Source of the DNA: Mycolicibacter heraklionensis
GTDB taxonomy: Bacteria > Actinomycetota > Actinomycetes > Mycobacteriales > Mycobacteriaceae
Length of the DNA: 64,000 bases
Assembly (NCBI GenBank): GCA_001673575.1
Contig: LZME01000128.1
Coordinates: 48,119-112,118, forward strand
Direction of reading: 5' to 3'
A program made the position numbers and the translations under genes. Positions 3,824 to 58,358 of this stretch are shown here, one piece after another. Under the pieces are notes generated by a model. That model had not been told where the DNA came from, made no database searches, and saw only the letters and a program-made list of their open reading frames with translations. The stretch's first letter is position 1, and each line of letters begins with the position of its first letter.

Positions 3824-4512
3824 TCCCCATCCTGGTCGCGCACGGCACTCGTCAGCCCGATGGGGTCGTCATGATCGGCGAGCTCGCCGAACGGGTCAGC
3901 ACCCTGCTGGCACAACCGGTCAGAGTGGCATTCGTCGACGTACTGGGACCCAGCCCGGCCGAGATCCTTGCCGCTGAAGCCGAAAACGGCTGCCCGGCCA
4001 TCCTCGTCCCCGCCTTCCTCGCCCGCGGCTACCACGTCGGCGTGGATGTTCCCACGCAGGTTGCCACCAGCGGACACCCCGACGTCACGATCACTCCGGC
4101 ACTGGGGCCCGACGCTCGTGTCGCTGCGGTGGTCGCCGCTCGGCTGACCGAATCGGGCTGGCGCCCCGGCGACTCGGTGGTTCTGGCTGCGGCCGGCTCC
4201 TCAGACCCGGTCGCGCAGAACGACCTCAAGCATGCAGCGCAGATGGTGTCCGGAATGATCGGAACGCCCGTCACAGTGGCATTCGCCGCTATCGGCGGGC
4301 CCAGCGTTCCCGAGGCTGTCGCCGACCTGCGCAGCCAAGGCGCGTCACGCGTCGTGATCGCGTCGTACTTGTTGGCCGACGGCCTTTTCCAGCGCCGCCT
4401 GCGCGATGCCGGAGCGGACCTCGTGACCGAGCCGCTGGGCACGCATCCCGGGGTCGCCCGAGTCGTTGCCGACCGGTTCATCACCGCCCACACGCGGATT
4501 CCGGTGCGATAA
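3820..4512 (+). CDS. Sirohydrochlorin ferrochelatase, CbiX/SirB family
   Basis: A 230-residue cytosolic protein with two tandem CbiX-type halves. The N-terminal LVAHGTR carries the metal-binding His, FLARGYHVGVDVP closes the first half, and VLAAAGSSDP opens the second. Family members insert iron (or cobalt) into sirohydrochlorin, giving siroheme, the cofactor of NirB encoded at 7633-10200. It overlaps the winged-helix gene by 4 bp. The H37Rv homologue Rv0259c sits in the same neighbourhood. The ferrochelatase assignment over cobalt chelatase rests on the nitrite-reductase context. Confidence 0.85.
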   Translation: MIPILVAHGTRQPDGVVMIGELAERVSTLLAQPVRVAFVDVLGPSPAEILAAEAENGCPAILVPAFLARGYHVGVDVPTQVATSGHPDVTITPALGPDARVAAVVAARLTESGWRPGDSVVLAAAGSSDPVAQNDLKHAAQMVSGMIGTPVTVAFAAIGGPSVPEAVADLRSQGASRVVIASYLLADGLFQRRLRDAGADLVTEPLGTHPGVARVVADRFITAHTRIPVR

Positions 4513-17662: not shown

Positions 17663-17690
17663 TTGCACTATGGCTACTGGCGAGTATATT
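17663..17690 (+). promoter_or_regulatory. fadE5 promoter
   Basis: TTGCAC (17663-17668) and TATATT (17685-17690) are separated by 16 bp, a good SigA-type promoter. Transcription would start near 17697, just before the TTAC-N6-GTAA palindrome at 17701. Confidence 0.6.
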
Positions 17691-17700
17691 TCAGGTTACG

Positions 17701-17714
17701 TTACTGGTGGGTAA
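17701..17714. promoter_or_regulatory. TTAC-N6-GTAA operator at fadE5
   Basis: TTACTGGTGGGTAA (extended arms GTTAC/GTAAC) lies immediately downstream of the predicted transcription start, where a repressor would block elongation. The same TTAC-N6-GTAA layout recurs at 23007 and 28234. Confidence 0.5.
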
Positions 17715-17763
17715 CTTAAGCCTGAGTACCCAACCACAGGTGGCATTCCATGAGGAGGAAGTA

Positions 17764-19599
17764 GTGAGCCACTACAAGAGCAATGTCCGTGACCAGGTGT
17801 TCAACCTGTTCGAGGTGCTGGGCTTGGACCAGGTCTTCGGCGAGGGCGACTACGCCGACCTGGACGTCGACACCGCTCAAGAGATGCTTGGCGAGATGGT
17901 CCGCCTGGCCGAGGGCCCGATCGCGGAGTCCTTCGTCGATGGCGACCGCAACCCGCCGGTGTTCGACCCGGCCACCCACTCGGTGACGCTGCCCGAGTCC
18001 TTCAAGAAGTCGGTGCGCGCCCACCTGGAAGGCGGCTGGGACCGTGTCGGGGTCATCGAGGAGCTCGGCGGCATTCCGATGCCCAAGGTCCTGATGTGGG
18101 CCCTGCAGGAGCACATCCTGGGCGCCAACCCGGCGGTGTGGATGTACGGCGGCGGCGCCGGCTTCGCCAACATCTTCTACAACATCGCCACCGACGAGCA
18201 GAAGAAGTGGGCCGTCCTCGCCGCCGAGCGTGGCTGGGGTTCGACCATGGTGCTGACCGAGCCGGACGCCGGCTCGGACGTGGGCGCCGGCCGCACCAAG
18301 GCCGTCCAGCAAGCGGACGGCTCGTGGCACATCGACGGCGTCAAGCGATTCATCACCTCGGCTGACTCCGACGACCTGTTCGAGAACATCTTCCACCTGG
18401 TCCTGGCCCGCCCGGAGGGCGCCAAGCCCGGCACCAAGGGTCTGTCGCTGTTCTTCGTGCCGAAGTTCCTGTTCGACTTCGAGACCGGTGAGCTCGGCGA
18501 GCGCAACGGCGCCTTCGTGACCAACGTCGAGCACAAGATGGGCCTGAAGGTCTCGGCCACCTGTGAGCTGACCTTCGGCCAGCACGGCGTCCCGGCCAAG
18601 GGCTGGCTCGTCGGCGAGGTGCACAACGGCATCGCGCAGATGTTCGACGTGATCGAGCAGGCCCGGATGATGGTCGGCACCAAGGCCATCGCGACGCTGT
18701 CCACCGGCTACCTCAACGCGCTCGAGTACGCCAAGGAGCGGGTGCAGGGCGCCGACCTCACCCAGATGACCGACAAGTCCGCACCGCGGGTGACCATCAC
18801 CCACCACCCGGATGTCCGCCGGTCGCTGATGACTCAGAAGGCCTACGCCGAGGGTCTGCGCGCGCTGTACATGTACACCGCCACCTTCCAGGACGAAGCG
18901 GTCGCCAAGGCGCTGCACGGCGTCGACGCCGACCTGGCGGTCAAGATCAACGACCTGATGCTGCCGATCGTCAAGGGTGTCGGCTCCGAGCAGGCCTACG
19001 CCAAGCTCACCGAGAGTCTGCAGACCCTGGGTGGCTCGGGCTTCCTGCAGGACTACCCGATCGAGCAGTACATCCGGGACGCCAAGATCGACTCGCTCTA
19101 CGAGGGCACCACGGCAATTCAGGCGCAGGACTTCTTCTTCCGCAAGATCATCCGTGACAAGGGCGCCGCACTGGGCCACGTCGCGGGCGAGATCGAGACG
19201 TTCATCAAGAACGAGACCGGCAACGGGCGACTCAAGGCCGAGCGGGAACTGCTGGCCACCGCGCTGGCCGACGTGCAGGGCATGGCGGCGACGCTGACCG
19301 GCTACCTGATGGCCGCGCAGGAGGACATCTCCAGCATCTACAAGGTCGGCCTGGGCTCGGTGCGCTTCCTGATGAGCGTCGGCGACCTGATGATCGGTTG
19401 GCTGTTGACCCGCCAGGCCGCGGTGGCAGTGGCGAAGCTCGATGCAGGCGCCGAGGGCGCCGACCGCTCCTTCTACGAGGGCAAGATCGCGGTTGCGTCG
19501 TTCTTCACCAAGAACTTCCTGCCGTTGCTGACCAGCACTCGCTCGGTCATCGAGAACATCGACAACGACATCATGGAGCTCGACGAAGCGGCGTTCTAA
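17764..19599 (+). CDS. fadE5: Acyl-CoA dehydrogenase FadE5
   Basis: A 611-residue FAD enzyme catalysing the first step of fatty-acid beta-oxidation. It belongs to the large ACAD class with an extra C-terminal domain. It contains [20 protein letters not shown] (FAD/substrate region) and [19 protein letters not shown], whose Glu447 is at the catalytic-base position of FadE5. GTG 17764 ([11 protein letters not shown]) is used: AGGAGG at 17753-17758 precedes it and the length equals H37Rv FadE5. An upstream in-frame start at 17707 overlaps the operator. It has its own promoter and downstream hairpin, so is likely monocistronic. A paralogue lies at 56523-58358. Confidence 0.95.
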
Positions 19600-19617
19600 A
19601 CGCCAAGCACAGACCGC

Positions 19618-19650
19618 GCAGGCCCCCGGGGAGATCCCTTGGGGGCCTGC
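19618..19650 (+). terminator. Terminator hairpin after fadE5
   Basis: GCAGGCCCCC pairs with GGGGGCCTGC around a 13-base loop, 18 bp after the fadE5 stop. No U-tract follows. Confidence 0.75.
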
Positions 19651-19746
19651 TGCATCTCCGGGGCTGGACGCGGGCGACACAGCTTGTCCTGATTTGTGGG
19701 ATGTATGTCGTAGACGCCACACGCCCGAGCGGCTGACACTGATGGC

Positions 19747-20715
19747 ATGACACGCACCGTCGTCATCCTCGGCTATCCCGGCATCCAGGCGCTGGATGTT
19801 TTCGGGCCCGCGGAGGTGTTCGCCACCGCGACGCTCGTCCTGCTCGGCCAGGGCCGCAGCGAGGACGGCTACCAGGTCACGGTGGCCAGCGTCGACGGCG
19901 CACCTCTCGCCACCAGCAGCGGGCTGGCTCTTGCACCGAGTCCCCTACCCGAACCGAACGGGCCCCTCGACACCCTGGTGCTGCCCGGCGGCGTCGGCGT
20001 CGGGGCAGCGCAGGCCGATCCGGAAACCATCGAATGGGTCCAGCGTGCCTCGGCCCAGACCCGGCGTGTGGTCAGCGTGTGTACCGGCGCGTTTCTGGCC
20101 GCGCAGGCGGGACTGCTCGACGGGTGCCGGGCCACTACACATTGGGCCTTCGCCGACGCGCTGGCCCGCGAGTTCCCCGCGGTCATCGTCGACCCGGAGC
20201 CCATCTTCGTGCGCAGTTCGGCGACGGTGTGGACCGCGGCCGGGGTCACCGCCGGTATCGATCTGGCCTTGGCGTTGGTGGAAGAAGACTACGGAACCGA
20301 GGTAGCCCAGACCGCGGCCCGCTGGCTGGTGCTCTATCTGCGGCGGCCCGGCGGCCAGTCCCAGTTCGCGGTGCCCGCTTGGCTGCCGCGTTCGCGTCGC
20401 GCGCCGATCCGTGATGTCCAGGAGCTGATCGAGTCCGAACCCGGTGGCCCACACCGGATTACCGAGCTGGCCTCGCGGGCCTCGATGAGCCCCCGGCACT
20501 TTACCCGGGTCTTCACCGACGAGGTGGGCATGGCGCCGGGCGCGTACGTCGAGCGGGTGCGCACCGAGGCAGCGCGCCGACAGCTCGAGGAGACCGACGA
20601 CACCGTCGTCGCGATTGCCGGGCGCTGCGGATTCGGCACCGCGGAAACCCTGCGGCGCACCTTCATTCGCCGGCTCGGCATCTCACCCGATCACTACCGC
20701 AAGACCTTCGCCTGA
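19747..20715 (+). CDS. GlxA-type transcriptional regulator (DJ-1/PfpI domain + AraC HTH)
   Basis: A 322-residue regulator. Residues about 1-175 form a DJ-1/PfpI glutamine-amidotransferase-like domain (LGYPGIQALDVFGPAEVF; nucleophile-elbow VCTGAFLAAQAGLLDG with Cys near 112). Residues about 225-322 are an AraC-type double helix-turn-helix (ASRASMSPRHFTRVFTDEVG, IAGRCGFGTAETLRRTF). Such proteins usually activate adjacent genes. The next gene, 12 bp downstream on the same strand, encodes a free-standing DJ-1/PfpI enzyme and is the likeliest target or partner. The effector is unknown. Confidence 0.88.
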   Translation: MTRTVVILGYPGIQALDVFGPAEVFATATLVLLGQGRSEDGYQVTVASVDGAPLATSSGLALAPSPLPEPNGPLDTLVLPGGVGVGAAQADPETIEWVQRASAQTRRVVSVCTGAFLAAQAGLLDGCRATTHWAFADALAREFPAVIVDPEPIFVRSSATVWTAAGVTAGIDLALALVEEDYGTEVAQTAARWLVLYLRRPGGQSQFAVPAWLPRSRRAPIRDVQELIESEPGGPHRITELASRASMSPRHFTRVFTDEVGMAPGAYVERVRTEAARRQLEETDDTVVAIAGRCGFGTAETLRRTFIRRLGISPDHYRKTFA

Positions 20716-20727
20716 AAGGAAATACCC

Positions 20728-21456
20728 ATGCAGATCGCAATTGTGCTCTACCCCGGATTCACCTCGCTGGACTTCATCGGCCCCTACGAGGTGTTGCGCT
20801 GGCTTCCGGATGCGCAGGTGCGCTTCGTGTGGCACGAGCCGGGGCCGATCACCGCGGACTCCGGTGTACTGGTGGTCGGGGCCACCCACTCGTTCGACGA
20901 GACGCCCTCCCCGGACGTGATTCTGATCCCCGGTGGGATGACGACCATGGAGCATGCCCGTGACGAGAAGCTGCTGGACTGGGTCCGCGCCGCCCACCGG
21001 ACGGCGACGTGGACGGCATCGGTGTGCTCGGGTTCGGTCGTACTGGGTGCCGCCGGCCTGCTCACCGGCAAGCGCGCCACCTCGCACTGGATGGCACTAC
21101 CCGCGCTGAAGACGTTCGGCGCCACCGCGGTCGGCGACGAGCGCATCGTGCACGAGGGAGACATCGTCACCTGCGCGGGAGTGTCGGCCGGCATCGATCT
21201 CGGGCTGTGGCTGGCCGGCCAGATCGGCGGCGAGGGCCGCGCCAAGGCCATCCAGTTGTCGATGGAGTACGACCCGCAGCCGCCGTTCGACTCCGGGCAC
21301 ACCTCCAAGGCATCGGTGCAGACCAAGGCGGCGGCCACCGCCCTGATGGCCAGGGAGCTCGCGAAGCCGGCCCAATTGAAGGCCAGCGCACTGCTGCTGT
21401 GGGATCAGGCGATCGGCGCGGTTCGCAACCGGCGGACCCAAACGGTCCGCCGCTGA
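20728..21456 (+). CDS. DJ-1/PfpI family protein, isonitrile hydratase-like
   Basis: A 242-residue cytosolic protein with a complete DJ-1/PfpI fold: LYPGFTSLDFIGPYEVLRWL at the start, ILIPGGMTTM, and nucleophile Cys near 100 in SVCSGSVVLGAAGLL followed by ATSHW. The pattern fits the cyclohexyl-isocyanide hydratase subgroup, but glyoxalase-III or deglycase-like roles cannot be excluded. A C-terminal tail of about 50 residues extends past the usual domain. It is preceded by GAAAGGAAATACCC with a ribosome site, and forms an operon with the GlxA-type regulator. A long perfect hairpin covers its stop codon. Confidence 0.85.
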   Translation: MQIAIVLYPGFTSLDFIGPYEVLRWLPDAQVRFVWHEPGPITADSGVLVVGATHSFDETPSPDVILIPGGMTTMEHARDEKLLDWVRAAHRTATWTASVCSGSVVLGAAGLLTGKRATSHWMALPALKTFGATAVGDERIVHEGDIVTCAGVSAGIDLGLWLAGQIGGEGRAKAIQLSMEYDPQPPFDSGHTSKASVQTKAAATALMARELAKPAQLKASALLLWDQAIGAVRNRRTQTVRR

Positions 21457-21481
21457 ATCCCCTCAGTTCAGCGGCGGACCG
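21443..21481 (+). terminator. 15-bp perfect hairpin overlapping the DJ-1 gene stop
   Basis: CGGTCCGCCGCTGAA pairs perfectly with TTCAGCGGCGGACCG around a 9-base loop. The left arm contains the last codons and the stop of the DJ-1 gene. It is likely the operon terminator, facing fadA2 from the other side. Confidence 0.75.
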
Positions 21482-21590
21482 GGCAAGTTGCTTCGCGCTA
21501 CCACCGGGGGCCCGCGGCCGCGCGAAGCGAACCGATGTCTCGACTACCCGGCAACGGCGCGTGTCAAACGTGGACGCTCAGCCCGCTTAG

Positions 21591-22937
21591 CTACCCCTCG
21601 AGGATGGCGGCCACGCCCTGGCCGCCGGCCGCACAGATCGAGATCAGCGCGCGCACCGGCTTGTTCTTCGCGGCACCCTTCTTGGCGGCCTTGGCTTCAG
21701 CGATCTGCTTGGCCGCCTGCGCCACGATCCGCCCACCGGTTGCTGCGAACGGGTGACCTGAAGCCAACGAGGAGCCGTTGACGTTGAGCTTGGTCCGGTC
21801 GATGGCACCCAGCGCCGAATCCAGTCCCAGCCGCTCCTTGCAGTACTCCTCGGATTCCCACGCCGCCAGGTGGCACAACACCGTGGCGGCGAACGCCTCG
21901 TGGATCTCGTAGAAATCGAAGTCCTGCAGGGTCAGGCCGTTGCGCGCCAGCAGCCGCGGCACCGCGTAAGTCGGGGCCATGAGCAGCCCATCGGCGCCGT
22001 TGACGTAGTCCACCGCGGCCGTCTCGGCGTCGACGAAGTACGCCAGCGGAGTCAGCTTGTGCGCGGCCGCCCACTCCTCGCTGGCCAGCAGCGCCACCGA
22101 CGCGCCGTCGGTGAGCGGGGTGGAGTTACCCGCGGTCATGGTGGCGTCACCGGCCTTGGCACCGAACACCGGCTTGAGCGTGGCCAGCTTCTCCGGGCTG
22201 GACTGGGGCCGCAGGTTGTCGTCCCGGTAGAGCCCCTGGAACGGCGTCACAAGGTCGTCGAAGAAGCCGCGGTCATAGGCGGCGGCCATGTTGCGGTGGC
22301 TGGCTGCGGCCAACTCGTCCTGGTCGACCCGCTTGATGCCCATCTGCTTTGTGGTGATGGCCTGGTGCTCGCCCATGGAAAGGCCGGTCCGCGATTCTTT
22401 GTTGGCCGGGATTTCCACGCCCAGCGCGGCGGGCAGTTTGCCGGCCAGCTTGAGGCGCTGCAGGTTCGACTTCGACCGGCGCAGCGCAAGCAGCGTGCGG
22501 CGCAGTTCATTGCCGATCGCCAGGGGCGCGTCCGAGGTGGTGTCCACCCCGCCGGCGGCGGCCACCTCGTAGCGACCGGCGGCGATCCCATCGGCGGCGC
22601 AGATCGCCGCCTGTAGCCCCGTGCCGCAGGCCTGCTGCAGGTCGAACGCCTGCGTGTAGGGCGAGAGCGCAGAGCCCAGCACCGATTCGCGGATCAGGTT
22701 GAAGTCGCGACTGTGCTTGAGCACCGCCCCGCCGATCACCGCGTCCAGCTTCTCGCCGGCCAGGCTGAACCGATCGACGAGACCGCCCAGCGCCGCGGTG
22801 AACATGTCCTGGTTGGACGCGTTCGCGTAAGCACCGTCGGAGCGTGCGAACGGAATGCGATTGCCCCCGAGGACGGCGACACGGCGTCGCGTGCCGGCGG
22901 TTGCCTCGGCAGGTTTAGCAGCAGATGCAGATGCCAC
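21591..22937 (-). CDS. fadA2: Acetyl-CoA acetyltransferase (thiolase) FadA2
   Basis: A 448-residue thiolase performing the last step of beta-oxidation, or its reverse condensation. Nucleophile Cys is in LQQACGTGLQAA (about 103), the His in EIHEAFAATV (about 344), a second His in SLASGHPFAATGGR, and the acid/base Cys in CAAGGQGVA (about 439). GTG 22937 (VASASAAKP) has a modest GAGAG upstream and a length close to H37Rv FadA2; ATG 22970 is an in-frame alternative. It is divergent from fabG4-htdX across a 141-bp gap that carries a TTAC-N6-GTAA operator. Confidence 0.92.
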   Translation of the reverse strand: MASASAAKPAEATAGTRRRVAVLGGNRIPFARSDGAYANASNQDMFTAALGGLVDRFSLAGEKLDAVIGGAVLKHSRDFNLIRESVLGSALSPYTQAFDLQQACGTGLQAAICAADGIAAGRYEVAAAGGVDTTSDAPLAIGNELRRTLLALRRSKSNLQRLKLAGKLPAALGVEIPANKESRTGLSMGEHQAITTKQMGIKRVDQDELAAASHRNMAAAYDRGFFDDLVTPFQGLYRDDNLRPQSSPEKLATLKPVFGAKAGDATMTAGNSTPLTDGASVALLASEEWAAAHKLTPLAYFVDAETAAVDYVNGADGLLMAPTYAVPRLLARNGLTLQDFDFYEIHEAFAATVLCHLAAWESEEYCKERLGLDSALGAIDRTKLNVNGSSLASGHPFAATGGRIVAQAAKQIAEAKAAKKGAAKNKPVRALISICAAGGQGVAAILEG

Positions 22938-23005
22938 GATCTCTCGTCTCTGATGGTGGGCCCCCCGCATTGCCGGGGACCGTCGGGCTGATACTACCCA
23001 GTATT

Positions 23006-23021
23006 CTTACTCTGGAGTAAG
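23006..23021. promoter_or_regulatory. TTAC-N6-GTAA operator between fadA2 and fabG4
   Basis: CTTACTC-TG-GAGTAAG is a 7-bp perfect inverted repeat containing TTAC-TCTGGA-GTAA. It can control both divergent transcripts, with fabG4 starting 58 bp and fadA2 69 bp away. It is the most symmetric of the three copies in the window. Confidence 0.6.
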
Positions 23022-23078
23022 TTCGTTGTCGACACCGTGGCCCGCACCAGGCACGTCCCCACATGGAAGGCAGCACCC

Positions 23079-24452
23079 ATGCCCCCTAAGGCCCCCAAGC
23101 TCTCCTCGGACCTGTTGTCCCAGATCCTGGGCTCCGCCCCCGGATCGTTCTTGGCCAAGCAGCTCGGCGTTCCGCAGGCCGAGACGCTGCGTCGTTACCG
23201 GGTCGGCGAGCCGGCGCTGGCCGGCCCGCTGCTGATCGGCGGGTCGGGCCGGGTGGTCGAGCCGCTGCGGGCCGCACTCGCCGACGACTACGAGCTGGTC
23301 GGCGACAACCTGGGCGGCCGGTGGGCCGACTCGTTCGGCGGACTGGTCTTCGACGCCACCGGCATCACCTCACCCGCCGGGCTGACCGCACTGCATGAGT
23401 TCTTCACCCCGCTGCTGCGCAACGTGGGCCGCTGCGGCCGGTTGGTCGTCGTCGGCACCACCCCCACGGCCACCGGCAGCGCCGACGAGCAGATCGCCCA
23501 GCGCGCACTGGAGGGCTTCACCCGCTCCCTGGGCAAGGAACTGCAGCGCGGTGCCACCGTGCAGCTGGTGTACCTCTCGCCAGACGCCAAACCTGGGGCC
23601 ACCGGCCTGGAATCGACGCTGCGATTCATCCTCTCGGCCCGCTCGGCCTACGTCGACGGCCAGGTGTTCTACGTGGGCGCCGACGACGCGACCGCTCCCG
23701 CCGACTGGGACCGGCCGCTGGAGGGCAAGGTCGCGATCATCACCGGCGCAGCGCGCGGCATCGGCGCCACCATTGCCGAGGTGTTTGCCCGCGACGGCGC
23801 CAAGGTGGTGGCGATCGACGTGCCGCAGGCCGCCGAGGCACTGGAGAAGACGGCTTCCCGAGTCGGCGGGACCGCGCTGGCACTGGACGTCACCGCCGAC
23901 GACGCGGTGGACCAGATCGCCGCGCACCTCGCTGAGCACCATGGCGGCAAGGCCGACGTGCTGGTCAACAACGCCGGCATCACTCGCGACAAGTTGCTGG
24001 CCAACATGGACGACGCTCGTTGGAACGCGGTTCTGGCCGTCAACCTTCTTGCCCCGCAGCGTCTTACCGAAGGACTGGTCGCCAACGGCAGCATCGGTGA
24101 GGGCGGCCGGGTGATCGGCCTGTCATCGATGGCCGGGATCGCGGGTAACCGCGGCCAGACCAACTACGCGGCCACCAAGGCCGGCATGATCGGCCTGACG
24201 GAAGCGCTGGCCCCGACGCTGGCCAAGAAGGGCATCACGATCAATGCCGTCGCCCCGGGGTTCATCGAAACCGAGATGACGGCGGCGATCCCGCTGGCCA
24301 CCCGCGAGGTCGGGCGTCGCCTCAACTCGCTGTTCCAGGGCGGTCAGCCCGTCGACGTCGCCGAGCTGATCGGCTACTTCGCCAGCCCGGCGTCGAATGC
24401 GGTCACCGGCAACACCATCCGGGTCTGCGGCCAAGCCATGCTGGGGGCGTGA
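23079..24452 (+). CDS. fabG4: High-molecular-weight 3-oxoacyl-ACP/CoA reductase FabG4
   Basis: A 457-residue two-domain reductase. Residues 1-~210 form the N-terminal flavodoxin-like domain special to FabG4; about 215-457 is the short-chain dehydrogenase with [30 protein letters not shown] (Ser) and YAATKAG (Tyr/Lys). It reduces 3-oxoacyl thioesters with NADH. The start is ATG 23079 with GGAAGG at 23065-23070, giving the length of H37Rv FabG4; an upstream GTG at 23037 lacks support. Followed closely by htdX, with which it is functionally paired (reduction, then dehydration). Confidence 0.94.
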
Positions 24453-24457
24453 GACGC

Positions 24458-25300
24458 ATGTCCCAACCCAGTGGTATGAGAAACATGGTGCGTGCAGTCG
24501 CCGGGGCGCTGCCCTTCATTTCGCGCACTCAAACCCTGCCGAACCGGACGCTGCGAGTCGACGGACTGACCATCGACCCCGACCACGTCGCCGCCTACGC
24601 CGCCGTCACCGGGCTGCGCTTCGCGGATCAGGTCCCGCTGACCTACCCCTTCGCGCTGACGTTCCCGACCGTGATGGAGCTGGCGACCGGGTTTGACTTC
24701 CCGTTCGCCGCGATGGGTTCGGTGCACACCGAGAACCGGATCACCCGCCACCGCCCGATCGCGGTCACCGACACCGTCGGAGTGACGGTGCGGGCAGAGA
24801 ACCTGCGGGAACACCGCAAGGGCCTGCTGGTCGACATCGTCACTGACATCACCGTCGGCAACGACCCGGCCTGGCATCAGGTGACCACGTTCCTGCACCA
24901 GCAGCGCACCAGCCTGTCCGACGAGCCGAAACCGCCGCCTGCCAAGCAGCCCAAGCTGGGCCCGCCCAGCGCGGTGCTGCGAGTGACCCCGGGCCAGATT
25001 CGCCGCTACGCGTCGGCCGGCGGCGATCACAATCCGATCCACACCAGCTCGATCGGCGCCAAGCTGTTCGGCTTCCCCACCGCGATCGCGCACGGGATGT
25101 TCTCGGCGGCAACGGTTCTGGCCAACATCGAAGGTGTGCTTCCGGACGCGGTGGACTACACGGTGCGGTTCGGCAAGCCAATGCTGCTGCCGGCAAGCCC
25201 CGGCCTCTACATCGACAAGGTCGACGGCGGCTGGGATGTGGCGCTGCGCAACGTCGCCAAGGGCTACCCCTACCTGACCGGGGCGGTGCGGGCGCTGTAG
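24458..25300 (+). CDS. htdX: (3R)-hydroxyacyl-thioester dehydratase HtdX
   Basis: A 280-residue double hot-dog (MaoC-like) dehydratase converting 3-hydroxyacyl thioesters to enoyl thioesters. The C-terminal hydratase motif GGDHNPIHTSSIGAKLFGF has the catalytic Asp/His (about 188-193), followed by AIAHGMFS. PLTYPFALTFPTVMEL marks the N-terminal half. ATG 24458 gives the H37Rv length. GTG 24449, which overlaps the fabG4 stop by 4 bp, is an alternative, and either way the genes are coupled. The partner reaction comes from FabG4 directly upstream. Confidence 0.93.
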   Translation: MSQPSGMRNMVRAVAGALPFISRTQTLPNRTLRVDGLTIDPDHVAAYAAVTGLRFADQVPLTYPFALTFPTVMELATGFDFPFAAMGSVHTENRITRHRPIAVTDTVGVTVRAENLREHRKGLLVDIVTDITVGNDPAWHQVTTFLHQQRTSLSDEPKPPPAKQPKLGPPSAVLRVTPGQIRRYASAGGDHNPIHTSSIGAKLFGFPTAIAHGMFSAATVLANIEGVLPDAVDYTVRFGKPMLLPASPGLYIDKVDGGWDVALRNVAKGYPYLTGAVRAL

Positions 25301-25320
25301 TCGGGCACCGCCATTTCCCC

Positions 25321-25926
25321 TTACGTGTTGTCGACCGCGAGGCCGGCCGCCTTCAGCAGCGTCGCCTTGCTGACCTCCCAGCGGGCGCTGACGACCTCGA
25401 TACCCCAGACCGGAATCGACATCACCAGCCCACGGACGACCACCATCACGGTGTCCATGTAGGCCCGCGCGGAAAACCCTGGGCTAGGCGCACGTAGCGC
25501 CTCCGCGGAGGCGACCGCCAGACCGTAGATGTGTTGCTCCAGCGACTTCACCGTCTTGGCCAATTGCGGGTCGGTCCAACACGCCACCCACAACTGGGCG
25601 ACCGAAAGTGCTTGGGGCGTAGTGAATTCGCGCCAGATCAGGTCGAGATATCCGCCCAGGTCGAGCGTGGCGGTCGCGGCCGTCTCTTCGAAGTGGATGC
25701 GGGCCTGATTGGCCAGTTCGAAGGCGAGCTGAGCGACCGCGGCCGTCACCAGGTCATCGCGGGTCGGGAAGTGGTACATCACCGTGCTTTGCGACACCGT
25801 CGCGGCACCGGCGACGCGGCGCGTGGTCACCGCGACGACCCCCTCGGTCCGCAGCAGTTCGACCGCCGCGCTCACCAATGCTTGACGCGTGGCGGCGCGC
25901 TGCTCGGCCCGCGTGCCATTTTTCAT
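25321..25926 (-). CDS. TetR-family transcriptional repressor
   Basis: A 201-residue regulator. The N-terminal helix-turn-helix spans about residues 12-58 (ALVSAAVELLRTEGVVAVTT, then TVSQSTVMYHFPTRDDLV). The C-terminal ligand domain is hydrophobic and unassigned. It is transcribed away from the PE-PPE gene at 26063. A perfect inverted repeat (25966-25981) lies 40 bp upstream of its ATG, inside the divergent gap, suggesting autoregulation and control of the PE-PPE gene. It converges on htdX. The ligand is unknown. Confidence 0.85.
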   Translation of the reverse strand: MKNGTRAEQRAATRQALVSAAVELLRTEGVVAVTTRRVAGAATVSQSTVMYHFPTRDDLVTAAVAQLAFELANQARIHFEETAATATLDLGGYLDLIWREFTTPQALSVAQLWVACWTDPQLAKTVKSLEQHIYGLAVASAEALRAPSPGFSARAYMDTVMVVVRGLVMSIPVWGIEVVSARWEVSKATLLKAAGLAVDNT

Positions 25927-25965
25927 TGGGATTCCCCTATTGCATTAACAGGTCCGCCACAGCTA

Positions 25966-25981
25966 ATCTGACTGATCAGAT
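25966..25981. promoter_or_regulatory. Probable TetR operator between tetR (25321-25926) and the PE-PPE gene
   Basis: ATCTGA-CTGA-TCAGAT is a perfect 6-bp inverted repeat with a 4-base centre, midway in a 136-bp divergent gap. The placement is typical of a self-regulating TetR. Confidence 0.5.
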
Positions 25982-26062
25982 GAACAGTCAACTGAGGCTC
26001 GGTCGTCATTTCCGCTGTTCAGGCCTGAAGACCTTGCCATGAGGCATTGTAAGGACACACCG

Positions 26063-27556
26063 ATGACCTTCACGTTTCGTCTCGAGAACACCCGTCGGCC
26101 GCTGCAGGCGCTCGCCGTACCGCTGGCCATCACCTCCGCCGTCACCCTGGGCGCGTCCCCGGCTCTGCACCCGGTATCGACCACTGCGTGGAAAACCGTT
26201 GCGGCCCAGGTGAAACTGCTGGACACCGAGGCATGGATCATGGGTGGCAGCGGCCTGCCGATCCCGCCGCAGAGCTACATCGACGCGCTCTTTGACCGCT
26301 ACATCGATCCCGCCACCCCGTTCTTCGACGGCCAGCCCCGCTATCCGGTGGATAAGACGAACCCCCTGTTCACACCGGAAGGCCTCTACCCCAACAGCGG
26401 CGTGAAAAGCCTGGAACTGGACCCGTCCATCGCCCAGGGTGTCACGATCCTGCACGACACGATCAACAAGCAGATCGCCGAGGGGAACAATCTCGTCGTA
26501 CTGGGCTACTCCCAGAGCAGCACCATTTCGACCATCGTGATGCGCGACCTGTTGGCGCTGCCTCCCGACCAACAACCGACCGCCGACCAGCTGTCCTTCG
26601 TGCTGCTGGGCGCCCCCAACAATCCCAACGGCGGCCTGTTCGAGCGCTTCGATGTCTTGACCGATGGCAGCTACCCGACCATCCCGAGCCTGGGCATCAC
26701 GTTCAACGGCGCCATCCCGGACGGCACCCCGTGGGACACCTCGGTCTACACGCTGGAATACGACGGCTACGCCGATTTCCCGAAGTACCCGATCAATTTC
26801 CTCGCCGACCTCAACGCTGTCCTGGGCATCATCTACGAGCACACCATCTATCCGAGCCTGACCGCCGAACAGCTGGCGACGGCCATCGAGTTGCCGATGA
26901 GCGAGGGTTACGACGGCAACACCCACTACTTCATGATTCCCAGCGAGATACTGCCGCTGTTGATGCCGCTGCGTTCGATCCCGGTCATCGGCGAGCCGCT
27001 CTACGACTTGCTGGAACCGAGCATGCGGATCCTGGTGAACCTCGGCTATGGCAGCATCACCGAGGGCTGGTCTTCGGGCCCGGCCAATGTGGCCGCGCCG
27101 TTCGAGTTGTTCCCGACAGACCTCAACTGGGGTGAGGTCCTGACCGCGCTGGGCAGCGGGGCGCAAGAGGGCTGGAACAACTTCGTCGACGATCTGTCGA
27201 ACCTGTCCTTCCCCAGCGCAGCCGATTTCCTGGGTGCCTCGGCGGGCGATGTCACGTCGTTCGCGCTGCCCAGCCTCAGCGAACTCGCCAACGCATTCAG
27301 CAGCATCGCTGCGTCGGCTTACGCGACGCTGCTGCCGACTGCCGACATCCTCAACGCCCTGTTCACCACGGCACCGGCGTATGCATTCGAAGTGTTCGCC
27401 CAGGAACTCGCCCAAGGCGACATCATCGACGCCATCGGCCTGCCGATCGCCGGCGTCGTCGGATTGGGCACGCTGGCAGCAGGTTTCGAGTTCCTCGCAC
27501 TCAACGGTGCGGTCCGCGAAATCACCGCGACCATCCAGGATCTCTTCACAGCCTGA
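26063..27556 (+). CDS. PE-PPE-domain serine hydrolase, secreted
   Basis: A 497-residue protein. Residues about 1-45 look like a secretion signal (basic LENTRRPLQ, then hydrophobic AVPLAITSAVTLGASPA). About 65-300 is the PE-PPE alpha/beta-hydrolase domain, with the nucleophile elbow GYSQSS near residue 148. The rest is Leu/Ala-rich. PE-PPE-domain proteins are mycobacterial esterases and cutinase-like lipases. This one lacks a PE or PPE leader and starts straight with the signal. AAGGA at 26051-26055 selects ATG 26063 over ATG 26039. It is divergent from a tetR gene. Confidence 0.82.
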   Translation: MTFTFRLENTRRPLQALAVPLAITSAVTLGASPALHPVSTTAWKTVAAQVKLLDTEAWIMGGSGLPIPPQSYIDALFDRYIDPATPFFDGQPRYPVDKTNPLFTPEGLYPNSGVKSLELDPSIAQGVTILHDTINKQIAEGNNLVVLGYSQSSTISTIVMRDLLALPPDQQPTADQLSFVLLGAPNNPNGGLFERFDVLTDGSYPTIPSLGITFNGAIPDGTPWDTSVYTLEYDGYADFPKYPINFLADLNAVLGIIYEHTIYPSLTAEQLATAIELPMSEGYDGNTHYFMIPSEILPLLMPLRSIPVIGEPLYDLLEPSMRILVNLGYGSITEGWSSGPANVAAPFELFPTDLNWGEVLTALGSGAQEGWNNFVDDLSNLSFPSAADFLGASAGDVTSFALPSLSELANAFSSIAASAYATLLPTADILNALFTTAPAYAFEVFAQELAQGDIIDAIGLPIAGVVGLGTLAAGFEFLALNGAVREITATIQDLFTA

Positions 27557-27568
27557 GGCCGCTCCCGA

Positions 27569-28195
27569 TTATCCGGCCGCGGCGGCGTCGGCGCCGTCGC
27601 GGCCGCCGGGGGCTTCTTTGAGGCCGCGCCAGAACAGGTCGATCATCAGCTCGCCGGCTTCGTCGACGCCGGTGTCGCCGGTGCTGACCCGGCTCGCGAT
27701 CGCCTCACCGGCACCCACCAGCGCGACCGCCATCAGCTCGAAGTCGACGCCCGGTTCGGGCTTACGCGTGCCGGCCCGCAAGAGCCGGCCGACCAGCTCG
27801 ATGATTCGCTCACGGCCCTCGCGCACGGTGTGGGCGAACGCCTGCGAACTGGTGGCCTGGGTGTACATCACGATCCACGACGCCCGATTGGCGTCGATGT
27901 AACGCAAGAAGGCACGAATCGTATTGCGCAGCATGTCTTTCGGGGGCTGCTGAAAGTCGATCTCGGTGCGGACCGATTCGACGAAGCGGCGCAGCTCGCG
28001 GTCCAGGCATGCCCCGAACAGTTCTTCTTTGGAGCCGTAGTACAGGTAGAGCATCGGCTTGGAGATCTGCGCGGCCGCGGCGATCGAATCCATCGAGGTC
28101 TCGTGGTAGCCGTTGACCGAGAACATCTGCACCGCGGCGTCGAGCATCTGCTGTTCGCGCACGGCCCGCGGTAACCGCTTGCTACCAGCTGCCAT
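27569..28195 (-). CDS. TetR-family regulator next to lpqI (Rv0238 position)
   Basis: A 208-residue repressor with an N-terminal helix-turn-helix at about residues 14-60 (MLDAAVQMFSVNGYHETSMD, QISKPMLYLYYGSKEELF) and a C-terminal ligand domain of typical length. The C-terminus is Gly/Ala-rich. A TTAC-N6-GTAA palindrome lies 39 bp upstream of its ATG, overlapping a TAAGAT -10 candidate. The same palindrome occurs at fadE5 and fadA2/fabG4. This makes it the best candidate for the regulator of those fatty-acid genes (inference). It follows lpqI on the same strand. Confidence 0.85.
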   Translation of the reverse strand: MAAGSKRLPRAVREQQMLDAAVQMFSVNGYHETSMDSIAAAAQISKPMLYLYYGSKEELFGACLDRELRRFVESVRTEIDFQQPPKDMLRNTIRAFLRYIDANRASWIVMYTQATSSQAFAHTVREGRERIIELVGRLLRAGTRKPEPGVDFELMAVALVGAGEAIASRVSTGDTGVDEAGELMIDLFWRGLKEAPGGRDGADAAAAG

Positions 28196-28233
28196 CGCCT
28201 CGAGGTCCTTCCGCGCTCCCCCTCGGCCCGATC

Positions 28234-28247
28234 TTACCGAAGAGTAA
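28234..28247. promoter_or_regulatory. TTAC-N6-GTAA operator at tetR (27569-28195)
   Basis: TTACCGAAGAGTAA, read on the gene strand as TTACTCTTCGGTAA, overlaps the TAAGAT -10 candidate of this tetR. It suggests autorepression. It is the third member of the set with 17701 and 23007. Confidence 0.5.
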
Positions 28248-28273: not shown

Positions 28274-29461
28274 TCACCCGTGGCAGTGCGCACCGGGCTT
28301 CTTGACCGCGGCGACGCGCGCCAGCGACGCGTCGACGGCTTCCTGCTTCAGCTCGCCGGCCGACACCGCCTGCTCCAACCGGTCCAATACCGCGGGCACC
28401 TCGTCGGTGGTGACCCACAGCGCGATGTCGACACCGGCCTGCAGGCTGCGCAGCACCGCTTCGGCGACCCCGTAGTGCTCGGTGATCGCCGCCATCGACG
28501 ACAGGTCGTCGCTGAACACCGGGCCGTCGAACGCCGGGCCGTGATAGTCGGTGCCGGTGCGCAGCAGCTTGACCGCCGCCGGGCTCAGGCTGGCTGGGTC
28601 CTCGGTCAGCCCGGGCACCTCCAGGTGGCCCATCATCACCGCCACCGGCGCCTCGGTGACCAGGGTGCGGTAGGGCACCAAGTCGTTGTCCTGCAGCTGC
28701 GCCAGAGGCGGGGTGACCACCGCGCCGGCCGTGTGCGAGTCACCGGAACCGTGGCCGTGGCCGGGGAAGTGCTTGAGCACCGGCAGCAGCCCGGCGTCCC
28801 GCAGACCCTGCGCGTACGCGCCGGCGTACTCGGTGACCTTGGCCGGATCCGAACCGAACGAACGGTCACCGATCACGGTGTCTTCGTCGGTGTCGGCGTC
28901 CACCACGTCGACAACCGGTGCGAAGTCGACGGTGATGCCAAGGTCAGCCATCTTGCGGCCCCGCTCGGCGGCCAACTCACGCACCTGCGCGGCGCTGCTG
29001 GTCTGCGCCAACTCCTTCGCCGACGGCGACTTCCCGATCAGCGACGACAACCGCGACACCCGGCCGCCCTCCTCGTCGACGCTGACCGCCAGCGGCAGCG
29101 GGCCGGTGGGAGCTTGGCTTTCCTTGATCTCCTTCAGCGAGCCATCGGTGAGCATGGACAGTTCGGTCCAGCTACCGATGAAGATGCCGCCGACGTGGTG
29201 ATCGGTGACCACCGCGCGGGCATCGGCCGCGTCGCGGACCCCCACCATCACCAGCTGCGCCAGCTTGTCGCGCACCGACAGGGCCGACACCTGTGCACAC
29301 ACCGGATCCACCGGCGCGGAGGCCGTCGCGGTAGGCGACGCCGCGGCATCAGACGACGGTGCGGGCGTCTCATCACGGTGCGAGCACGACGTGACGAGGG
29401 CCGGCAGCACCGCAGCGGCCAGCAGCAGACCGGGCAGTTGTCGAGTCAGCGATCCAGGCAT
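28274..29461 (-). CDS. lpqI: Lipoprotein beta-N-acetylglucosaminidase LpqI (GH3, NagZ-like)
   Basis: A 395-residue exported lipoprotein. The signal peptide ends in lipobox LVTSC with lipidated Cys26, followed by a Ser/Ala/Pro linker. The GH3 domain has KHFPGHGHGSGDSH, the NagZ-type loop carrying the Asp/His pair, and FSDDLSSMAAI with the nucleophile Asp. It removes N-acetylglucosamine from muropeptides in peptidoglycan recycling at the cell surface. It starts at ATG 29461. A tetR gene lies 78 bp downstream on the same strand, as in H37Rv where Rv0238 neighbours lpqI. Confidence 0.92.
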   Translation of the reverse strand: MPGSLTRQLPGLLLAAAVLPALVTSCSHRDETPAPSSDAAASPTATASAPVDPVCAQVSALSVRDKLAQLVMVGVRDAADARAVVTDHHVGGIFIGSWTELSMLTDGSLKEIKESQAPTGPLPLAVSVDEEGGRVSRLSSLIGKSPSAKELAQTSSAAQVRELAAERGRKMADLGITVDFAPVVDVVDADTDEDTVIGDRSFGSDPAKVTEYAGAYAQGLRDAGLLPVLKHFPGHGHGSGDSHTAGAVVTPPLAQLQDNDLVPYRTLVTEAPVAVMMGHLEVPGLTEDPASLSPAAVKLLRTGTDYHGPAFDGPVFSDDLSSMAAITEHYGVAEAVLRSLQAGVDIALWVTTDEVPAVLDRLEQAVSAGELKQEAVDASLARVAAVKKPGAHCHG

Positions 29462-56522: not shown

Positions 56523-58358
56523 TTAGAACGCGTCCTCGGAGAGGTCCATCAACGCGAGGTCCTCACTCTCGACAATGCGACGATCCGCACCTAGCCGGGG
56601 TAACACGTTGGCCGCGAAGAACTTTGCCGCCGCCACCTTGCCGCGGTAGAAGTGCTGATCGTCGCCGGAGGCCCCGTGATCGAGTGCAGTCAGCGCGATC
56701 TCGGCCTGACGCATCAGCAGCCAGCCGATCACCAGATCACCGACGGCCAGCAGGAATCGCACCGAGCCCAAGCCCACCCGATAGAGCTCCCGGGCCTCCT
56801 GCTGGGAGCCGAACATGTATCCGGTCATAGCGGCCACCATCGCCCGCACGTCGTCGAGCGCGGCGGCCAGTAGCTTGCGTGAATCGGCCAGTTCCTTATG
56901 GCCGTCGGCGTCGTCGAGCAACGCGTCTATCTGGGCTACCAGATGCGTCAGCGCCACACCGCGGTCGCGGGCGATCTTGCGGAAGAAGAAGTCCTGCGCC
57001 TGAATTGCCGTGGTGCCCTCATACAGCGAGTCGATCTTGGCGTCACGGATGTACTGCTCGATCGGGTAGTCCTGCAGGAAACCCGAGCCGCCGAATGTCT
57101 GCAGTGAATCGGTCAGGTACTGGTAGGCCCGTTCCGAACCGACGCCCTTGACGATCGGCAGCAGCAGGTCGTTGACCCGTTCGGCCATCTCGGCGTCGGC
57201 GCCCGAGACCTGCATAGCGACTTGCGGGTTCTGGTGGGCCGCGGTGTAGAGGTACAGCGCCCGCATGCCCTCGGCATAGACCTTCTGCATCATCAGGGCG
57301 CGCCGCACATCCGGGTGATGGATGATCGACACCCGCGGCGCGGTCTTGTCGGTCATCTGAGTCAGGTCGGCTCCCTGAATACGGGTCTTGGCGTACTCCA
57401 GCGCGTTGAGGTAGCCGGTGGATAGCGTAGCGATCGCCTTGGTTCCCACCATCATTCGCGCATACTCGATGACGCGGAACATTTGGGCGATGCCGTTGCG
57501 GCTGTCACCGACCAGCCACCCTTTCGCCGGAATGCCGTGCTGGCCGAAGGTCAGTTCGCAGGTGGTCGAAACCTTCAGCCCCATCTTGTGTTCCAGACCG
57601 GTGACGAACACTCCGTTGCGCTCCCCTGGCTCGCCGGTCTCGGGGTCCGGCAGGAACTTAGGCACCAGAAAAAGGCTGAGCCCCTTGGTTCCCGGCCCGG
57701 CGCCCTCGGGACGGGCCAGGGTCATGTGCATGATGTTCTCGAACAGGTCATCGGTGTCGCCGTTGGTGATGAATCGCTTGACGCCGTCGATGTGCCACGT
57801 GCCGTCGGGTTGCTCGATGGCCTTGGTGCGGCCCGCCCCGACGTCAGAGCCGGCGTCGGGTTCGGTGAGCACCATAGTGGCGGCCCAGTTCCGCTCGATC
57901 GCCATGGAAGCCCAGTGCCGCTGCTGCTCGTTGCCCAACCCGTAGAGGATGTTGGCGAAGATCGGACCGGCCATGAAGATGAACACCGCGGGGTTGGCGC
58001 CTAGCGCCAGTTCGTTGATCGCCCAGGACACCATCGACGGCGCCGGCACCCCACCGACCTCTTCACACAGGCCGATCCGGAACCACTCGCCCTCCTTCCA
58101 GGCCCGCAGCGATTCCTTGAAGGGTTCGGGCAGCGTCACACTGTGGGTGGCCGGGTCGAACACCGGTGGATGGCGGTCGCTGGCGGCAAAGGACTCGGCC
58201 ACCGGCCCCTCGGCCAGCCGGGCGGCTTCGGCCAGCATCTGGCGCACCGTGTCGCCGTCGAGATCTCCGAACGCGCCGTCGGCCAGGCACTGCTCCAGCC
58301 CCAGCAGTTCGAACAGATTGAATTCCAGGTCGCGCACATTGCTCTTGAAGTGACCCAT
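56523..58358 (-). CDS. FadE5-like acyl-CoA dehydrogenase (paralogue)
   Basis: A 611-residue FAD acyl-CoA dehydrogenase, exactly the length of FadE5 at 17764-19599 and similar throughout. It shares [40 protein letters not shown] and [18 protein letters not shown] with the catalytic Glu. ATG 58358 ([10 protein letters not shown]) lines up with the FadE5 start; ATG 58373 is 5 codons upstream. Differences concentrate in the substrate-facing N-terminal third (for example [18 protein letters not shown]), so chain or substrate preference may differ. It lies downstream of nat and the protease on the same strand and could belong to their steroid-linked transcript. Confidence 0.88.

Follow-up and report, generated by a model that had tools for sequence, protein, structure and literature searches.

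Three palindromes at fatty-acid gene promoters of Mycolicibacter heraklionensis as probable FdmR operators within a wider candidate regulon

Introduction

Which protein reads the three TTAC-N6-GTAA palindromes that stand at fatty-acid gene promoters in a 64,000-nucleotide stretch of Mycolicibacter heraklionensis DNA (contig LZME01000128.1; the whole stretch is hereafter called the window), and how many other genes carry the same signal? One palindrome lies upstream of fadE5, one between the divergent fadA2 and fabG4-htdX genes, and one before a tetR gene that adjoins lpqI. The original prediction, made from the letters alone, was that the product of this tetR represses its own gene together with fadE5, fadA2 and fabG4-htdX. 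From the distribution of the motif and the genes beside it, we consider it highly likely that the three palindromes are operators of the repressor FdmR, encoded at 27569-28195, and that they form part of a wider regulon.

Beta-oxidation is central to mycobacterial life on fatty acids. TetR-family repressors of this pathway that are released by acyl-CoA are known from other bacteria, i.e.: FadR/YsiA in Bacillus, whose regulon includes etf genes, and PsrA in Pseudomonas. FdmR itself was reportedly characterised in Mycobacterium marinum by Dong et al., in PNAS, in 2021. Passages of PMC12403877 describe FdmR (Rv0238) as a long-chain acyl-CoA-responsive repressor of genes for fatty-acid degradation and modification, passages of PMC9262360 name it as a key regulator of fadE5, and passages of PMC10701892 and PMC9301340 cite it likewise. 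It is also reported to balance the burning of fatty acids against the building of envelope lipids (passages of PMC12403877 and PMC10701892). According to PMC4482099, Rv0238 is one of five TetRs conserved in every mycobacterium analysed, including M. leprae; it does not appear in the examined parts of that paper's motif table, which covers divergently oriented regulators only.

Results

An exact palindrome at conserved promoters

Exact TTAC-N6-GTAA occurs three times in the window, at the coordinates originally given and always between genes (Table 1), against 0.03 sites expected and a maximum of one in 100 dinucleotide shuffles. The site shared by fadA2 and fabG4 is a 16-bp palindrome, perfect apart from its 2-bp centre (CTTACTCTGGAGTAAG). 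Over the whole genome (4.72 Mb in 161 contigs) the motif is found 12 times, and only twice when the pattern is read backwards; with the tighter form TTACY-N4-RGTAA these figures become 10 and 0. Summed over 21 genomes, the tighter form has 171 sites versus 17 for its reversed control.

A comparison of these promoters across mycobacteria had been proposed as a check, and it came out in favor of the prediction at two of the three sites. Our sample consisted of the 80 best loci for the window TetR, all of them mycobacterial, the nearest of which (Mycolicibacter heraklionensis and Mycobacterium sp. UM_WGJ) encode a protein of 100% identity. Among loci that extend 150 bases or more past the gene start, the site is exact in 48/48 for fadE5 and in 70/70 for fadA2|fabG4. 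When 46 fadE5 promoters were anchored on the gene, a 19-column block (GTTACTGGTGGGTAACTTA) was at least 90% conserved and its flanks were not. Likewise, 47 anchored fabG4 promoters share a block around TTACTCTGGAGTAAG, as well as ATACTACCCA, which bears a -10-like element of fadA2 on the other strand. Both sites are thus conserved islands within otherwise variable promoters.

The site before tetR behaves differently. It is exact in 20 of the 80 loci, comprising all 13 of the window clade (12 Mycolicibacter-titled loci and Mycobacterium sp. UM_WGJ) and seven others, and is present with at most one mismatch in 37/80, compared to 0.8% of shuffled upstream regions. In many of the remaining loci the left half, TTACYCT, is visible by eye and the right half is not; this left half contains a TANNNT hexamer of the -10 type. 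Within the window clade self-repression is hence plausible, yet no other element of the original prediction is so poorly conserved. A universal autoregulation finds no support outside this clade.

The regulator is very probably FdmR

The window TetR belongs to the TetR family by its N-terminal domain (PF00440, TetR_N, 59.2 bits for a cut-off of 24) and carries a TetR_C_46 domain (PF21943, 98 bits, cut-off 27). Its solved relatives include 3f1b (E 2.3e-69) and 6o6n/6o6p, which we take to be FasR. The gene is not divergent from lpqI: both are on one strand, with lpqI (end at 28274) followed by tetR (start at 28195). This neighborhood is presumably the one that fdmR has in M. tuberculosis, where the gene also stands beside lpqI. 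An orthologue is the clear best match in 13/13 genomes of the genus, with 72-100% identity, and these proteins form one clade with 100/99 support. Very probably, then, the window TetR is FdmR (Rv0238).

Two other families were rejected as its identity. FasR is the closest named NCBIfam model, yet the window protein scores 89.2 bits, far below the cut-off of 330, and the genome has a separate FasR on contig C11 (375.9 bits); in the model's description, FasR is an activator. Against the Bacillus-type FadR model it reaches 60.5 bits, versus a cut-off of 200. The likeness to FadR/YsiA and PsrA is one of logic, i.e.: acyl-CoA-released repression of beta-oxidation by a TetR, and the FadR operator is a different one. 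The original idea of an acyl-CoA-responsive repressor of fatty-acid genes agrees with FdmR, likewise of the TetR family, for which passages of PMC12403877 and PMC9262360 report repression of fatty-acid genes, a response to long-chain acyl-CoA and control of fadE5. The window protein would have the same properties, fadE5 being a candidate target by its operator-like site in 48/48 loci. That interpretation is essentially right, but already published for FdmR. The difference lies in self-repression, probable for the window-clade protein, whereas most of the 80 loci lack an exact self-site.

The motif reaches the electron route of acyl-CoA dehydrogenases

Nine of the 12 exact sites in the genome lie outside the window. 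One is found upstream of etfB-etfA (electron transfer flavoprotein, ETF, domains in Pfam), and two, with starts and centres 25 bp apart, precede a gene whose 904-residue product has Fer4 and CCG domains and is by resemblance EtfD. Another stands upstream of an acyl-CoA dehydrogenase adjoining a hisN-like gene, presumably fadE24, and another upstream of a fatty-acid desaturase located after a ferredoxin-reductase-like gene, presumably desA3. The site on C115 precedes a DUF4442 gene and that on C143 stands about 200 bp before an open reading frame (ORF) without a Pfam match. The remaining sites, one on C31 and one on C116, fall outside the TTACY-N4-RGTAA consensus, lie at the edges of unrelated genes, and were taken as chance. 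Passages on EtfD in PMC8593149 agree with our naming, and they state that several acyl-CoA dehydrogenases need EtfBA and EtfD.

We then located these proteins in the own genome and 20 relatives by protein search and inspected about 200 bases upstream, leaving out of the denominators those cases with no match at the cut-off (etfD in G003 and G005, fadE5 in G005). Within the genus, an exact site precedes fadE5 in 12/12 genomes, etfB in 13/13, fadE24 in 11/13 (13/13 with at most one mismatch) and desA3 in 9/13 (12/13 with at most one mismatch). For etfD it is exact in 7/11, and all seven genomes have the pair. The reversed control pattern gave 0 hits in the upstreams of these five genes. At etfB the arms of the site are kept while the N6 core varies between genomes, as expected of a dimer site.

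Sites were also placed one by one, among the matches listed, in five genomes of the genus (the own genome, G002, G004, G006 and G007); individually viewed sites come from G000, G002, G004, G006, G007, G013, G014, G016, G018 and G019 in all, and the adjacent gene was chosen heuristically as the longest frame with high GC3 minus GC2 (G+C at third and second codon positions). Of 47 listed TTACY-N4-RGTAA sites, 31 are at seven promoters: fadE5, fadA2|fabG4, fdmR, etfB, etfD, desA3 and fadE24. The regulon of three promoters first proposed was thus probably too narrow, and etfBA, etfD, fadE24 and desA3 would be direct FdmR targets as well.

That FdmR might control only the promoters in the window, its own included, and have nothing to do with the sites elsewhere in the genome, has in its favor that the three sites fall within 11 kb beside the regulator. 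We hold it to be improbable in view of the exact sites at etfB, fadE24, desA3 and etfD, and the self-site that it counts among the three is the one usually lost. In print, one paper, PMC10501769, which has passages on FdmR, was the match for FdmR together with desA3. We found no printed statement that FdmR controls etfBA, etfD or fadE24, a negative of little weight, as the searches did not cover the primary FdmR paper; nor is FdmR or Rv0238 mentioned in the passages of PMC8593149, or FdmR or a TetR in those of the EtfD structure paper PMC13083937.

Other elements accompany two of these promoters. At desA3 (L002, ~3996-4012) a second palindrome, CCTACG-TTCG-CGTAGG, stands beside the FdmR-type site and is probably the operator of another regulator; in G001, G010 and G012 the site has TTACGATAGCGTAG-like elements close by. 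Upstream of etfD, two genomes without the FdmR-type pair (L195 and L197) have a TTAGG-N2-AGCCTTTCTCGCGG-like sequence, which we assume may be an IdeR box.

The candidate operator persists outside the genus

We also examined eight genomes from other families of the order. An exact site precedes fadE5 in 6/8 of them, and one with at most one mismatch in 8/8. At etfB it is exact in one of the eight and within one mismatch in six, and at etfD these numbers are one and five. A clear FdmR orthologue was found only in G016 (43% identity). Its gene adjoins fabG4 and fadA2; the fdmR promoter there carries two sites, and a further site separates fabG4 from fadA2. In the other seven genomes no FdmR was recognisable: best matches have ~30% identity and group with each genome's FasR (99/97 support), in a TetR tree with long branches that carries a long-branch warning. 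Five of these seven best matches were scanned and score 240-261 bits to the FasR model (FdmR: 89), none reaching 330. In genomes without a recognisable FdmR, another regulator may therefore read the fadE5 operator.

Could the sites then belong to another TetR in the window's own genome too, such as a FasR-like protein (C11) or the one encoded at 25321-25926, with FdmR merely nearby? The 50 TetR-like matches to the window protein in the genome and the motif at fadE5 in those seven genomes, which implies that another protein can read it, both speak in favor of this explanation. We nevertheless judge it very improbable. The TetR at 25321-25926 is present in only 6/80 loci, while the sites are conserved wherever viewable, and the C11 protein is FasR, described as an activator. 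The motif is moreover found at fdmR's own promoter in the window clade, and fadE5 is linked to FdmR in passages of PMC9262360. An AraC-like gene at 19747 was rejected as the regulator on similar grounds: it is present in only 10/80 loci, and the sites are far more widespread.

One lead on a different reader comes from G013, where no FdmR orthologue was found. There, the gene of a TetR with a TetR_C_32 domain (L122, 2279-3304) and fadA2 diverge from an interval that contains TTACTCGGGGGTAA. As a general replacement of FdmR this TetR was rejected, since its best matches in G017 (46%) and G020 (36%) have neither fadA2 nor a site with at most one mismatch nearby, and the loci examined in G016 and G000 likewise showed no fadA2 and no such site beside its relatives. 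The layout thus appears limited to G013, and we regard it as a lead rather than a result. More generally, and tentatively, TTACY-N4-RGTAA could be an order-wide operator of beta-oxidation and ETF genes that is older than FdmR, being read by FdmR in Mycobacteriaceae and one further family (G016) and by a different TetR in other families through an exchange of regulators; we find this possible, though not the likelier outcome.

Discussion

In the mechanism that we favor for FdmR, a dimer would occupy GTTACY-N4-RGTAAC where it overlaps or directly adjoins the core promoters, and block RNA polymerase. Its targets would be fadE5, the divergent fadA2 and fabG4-htdX (two promoters served by one operator) and, in the window clade, fdmR itself. 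As long-chain acyl-CoA builds up, the ligand would release FdmR and beta-oxidation would be switched on. The same operator before etfBA, etfD (paired), fadE24 and desA3 would extend control so that the regulon combines acyl-CoA dehydrogenases and their electron route with thiolase, reductase and dehydratase. The analysis itself establishes the motif, its positions and conservation and the identities of the genes. Binding of the window TetR to these very sites, the dimer geometry and direct control of etfBA, etfD, fadE24 and desA3 are inferred, and ligand release and repression would follow what passages on FdmR report, or are supplied by us.

Several observations weigh against this reading. 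The genomes compared are related, so that conservation counts are not independent. The identification of the window TetR as FdmR is indirect, through family-wide one-to-one conservation and the lpqI neighborhood; no named Rv0238 or M. marinum FdmR sequence was among the 80 loci. An exact self-site is lacking in 60/80 loci and, in an independent sample, in 11/13 genomes of the genus (present in 2/13). Four of 11 genomes have etfD without an exact site (G001, G006, G007 and G010), and passages of PMC8593149 report that etfD answers to iron via IdeR. Sixteen of the 47 listed sites are at other genes, several without a link to lipids: among them are a biotin carboxylase, a glycerol-3-phosphate-oxidase-like enzyme, GMC and flavin oxidoreductases, an MFS transporter and match-less ORFs. 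Some genomes have the motif at fadE5 although a search of them gave no FdmR orthologue, so that the two do not strictly go together. Finally, when one mismatch is allowed the window has five sites versus a mean of 2.3, and 8/100 shuffles reach five; this excess is weak, and the signal therefore depends on the exact motif. Chance palindromes in a GC-rich genome, for which one may invoke this weak excess and the two chance-like sites of twelve (C31 and C116) outside the tighter consensus, are a practically negligible explanation, rejected on the shuffle expectation for exact sites and on the conservation counts at fadE5 and fadA2|fabG4.

The regulator and its core role were published in 2021, and three findings are worth keeping here: the ETF/EtfD branch, the self-site that is so often lost, and an operator that persists where FdmR was not found. 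Should etfBA and etfD be direct targets, a single acyl-CoA sensor would govern both redundant dehydrogenases and their single common electron exit. And an operator kept where FdmR was not found would be, if the exchange is true, a clean case of regulators replaced under a fixed DNA code.

Features of the window and minor observations

The enzymes proposed as one acyl-CoA cycle are identified by their matches: FadE5, FadA2 and FabG4 match solved structures of the same names, and the fourth is of MaoC type by Pfam (Table 1). The start of fadE5 is probably GTG 17764, giving 611 codons, in line with solved FadE5 chains of mostly 611 residues, and the real fadA2 start is probably some codons inside the longest frame. 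The htdX-like gene and the end of fabG4 share 4 bp. Given the -10-like elements, found by a scan for TANNNT hexamers, the fadE5 site would lie at the start of transcription and the tetR site over the -10.

Table 1. Predicted operators, candidate promoter elements and genes, in window coordinates.
Feature	Position	Strand	Basis or remark
Predicted operator of fadE5, TTACTGGTGGGTAA	17701-17714	+	~49 bp before likely GTG start 17764
Extended form of fadE5 operator, GTTACTGGTGGGTAAC	17700-17715		
Predicted operator common to divergent fadA2 and fabG4-htdX promoters, TTACTCTGGAGTAA	23007-23020	.	
Predicted operator of tetR, TTACCGAAGAGTAA	28234-28247	-	minus-strand reading TTACTCTTCGGTAA
Candidate -10-like TATATT, fadE5	17685-17690	+	TANNNT scan
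Candidate -10-like TATTCT, fabG4	23002-23007	+	TANNNT scan
Candidate -10-like TAGTAT, fadA2	22991-22996	-	TANNNT scan; inside conserved block ATACTACCCA
Candidate -10-like TAAGAT, tetR	28231-28236	-	TANNNT scan; overlaps operator
fadE5, acyl-CoA dehydrogenase	17764-19599	+	PDB 6kse (named FadE5), 1184 bits; Pfam acyl-CoA dehydrogenase domains
fadA2, thiolase, longest frame	21591-22970	-	PDB 7xly (named FadA2), aligned from residue 20; Pfam thiolase
fabG4, ketoacyl reductase	23079-24452	+	PDB 5vp5 (named FabG4); Pfam short-chain dehydrogenase
htdX-like MaoC dehydratase	24449-25300	+	Pfam MaoC_dehydratas; found in 76/80 loci
fdmR, TetR-family repressor	27569-28195	-	TetR_N and TetR_C_46; adjoins lpqI in 80/80 loci

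A FadE5 paralogue on the minus strand (57456-58352) is 69% identical to FadE5 over the N-terminal 300 residues of the latter, and the window scan gave no exact TTAC-N6-GTAA near it. The second TetR gene, already mentioned as a rejected candidate, is on the minus strand between htdX and the next gene. Two observations concern motif sites in the other genomes. Three ORFs that follow such sites (L006, L092 and L098) have no Pfam match and have in common an N-terminus like RPYATAGVA. In G006 and G007 (L111 and L112), TTACTGTAAGGTAA lies 6 bases upstream of a gene for an MFS transporter, identified by Pfam on L111.

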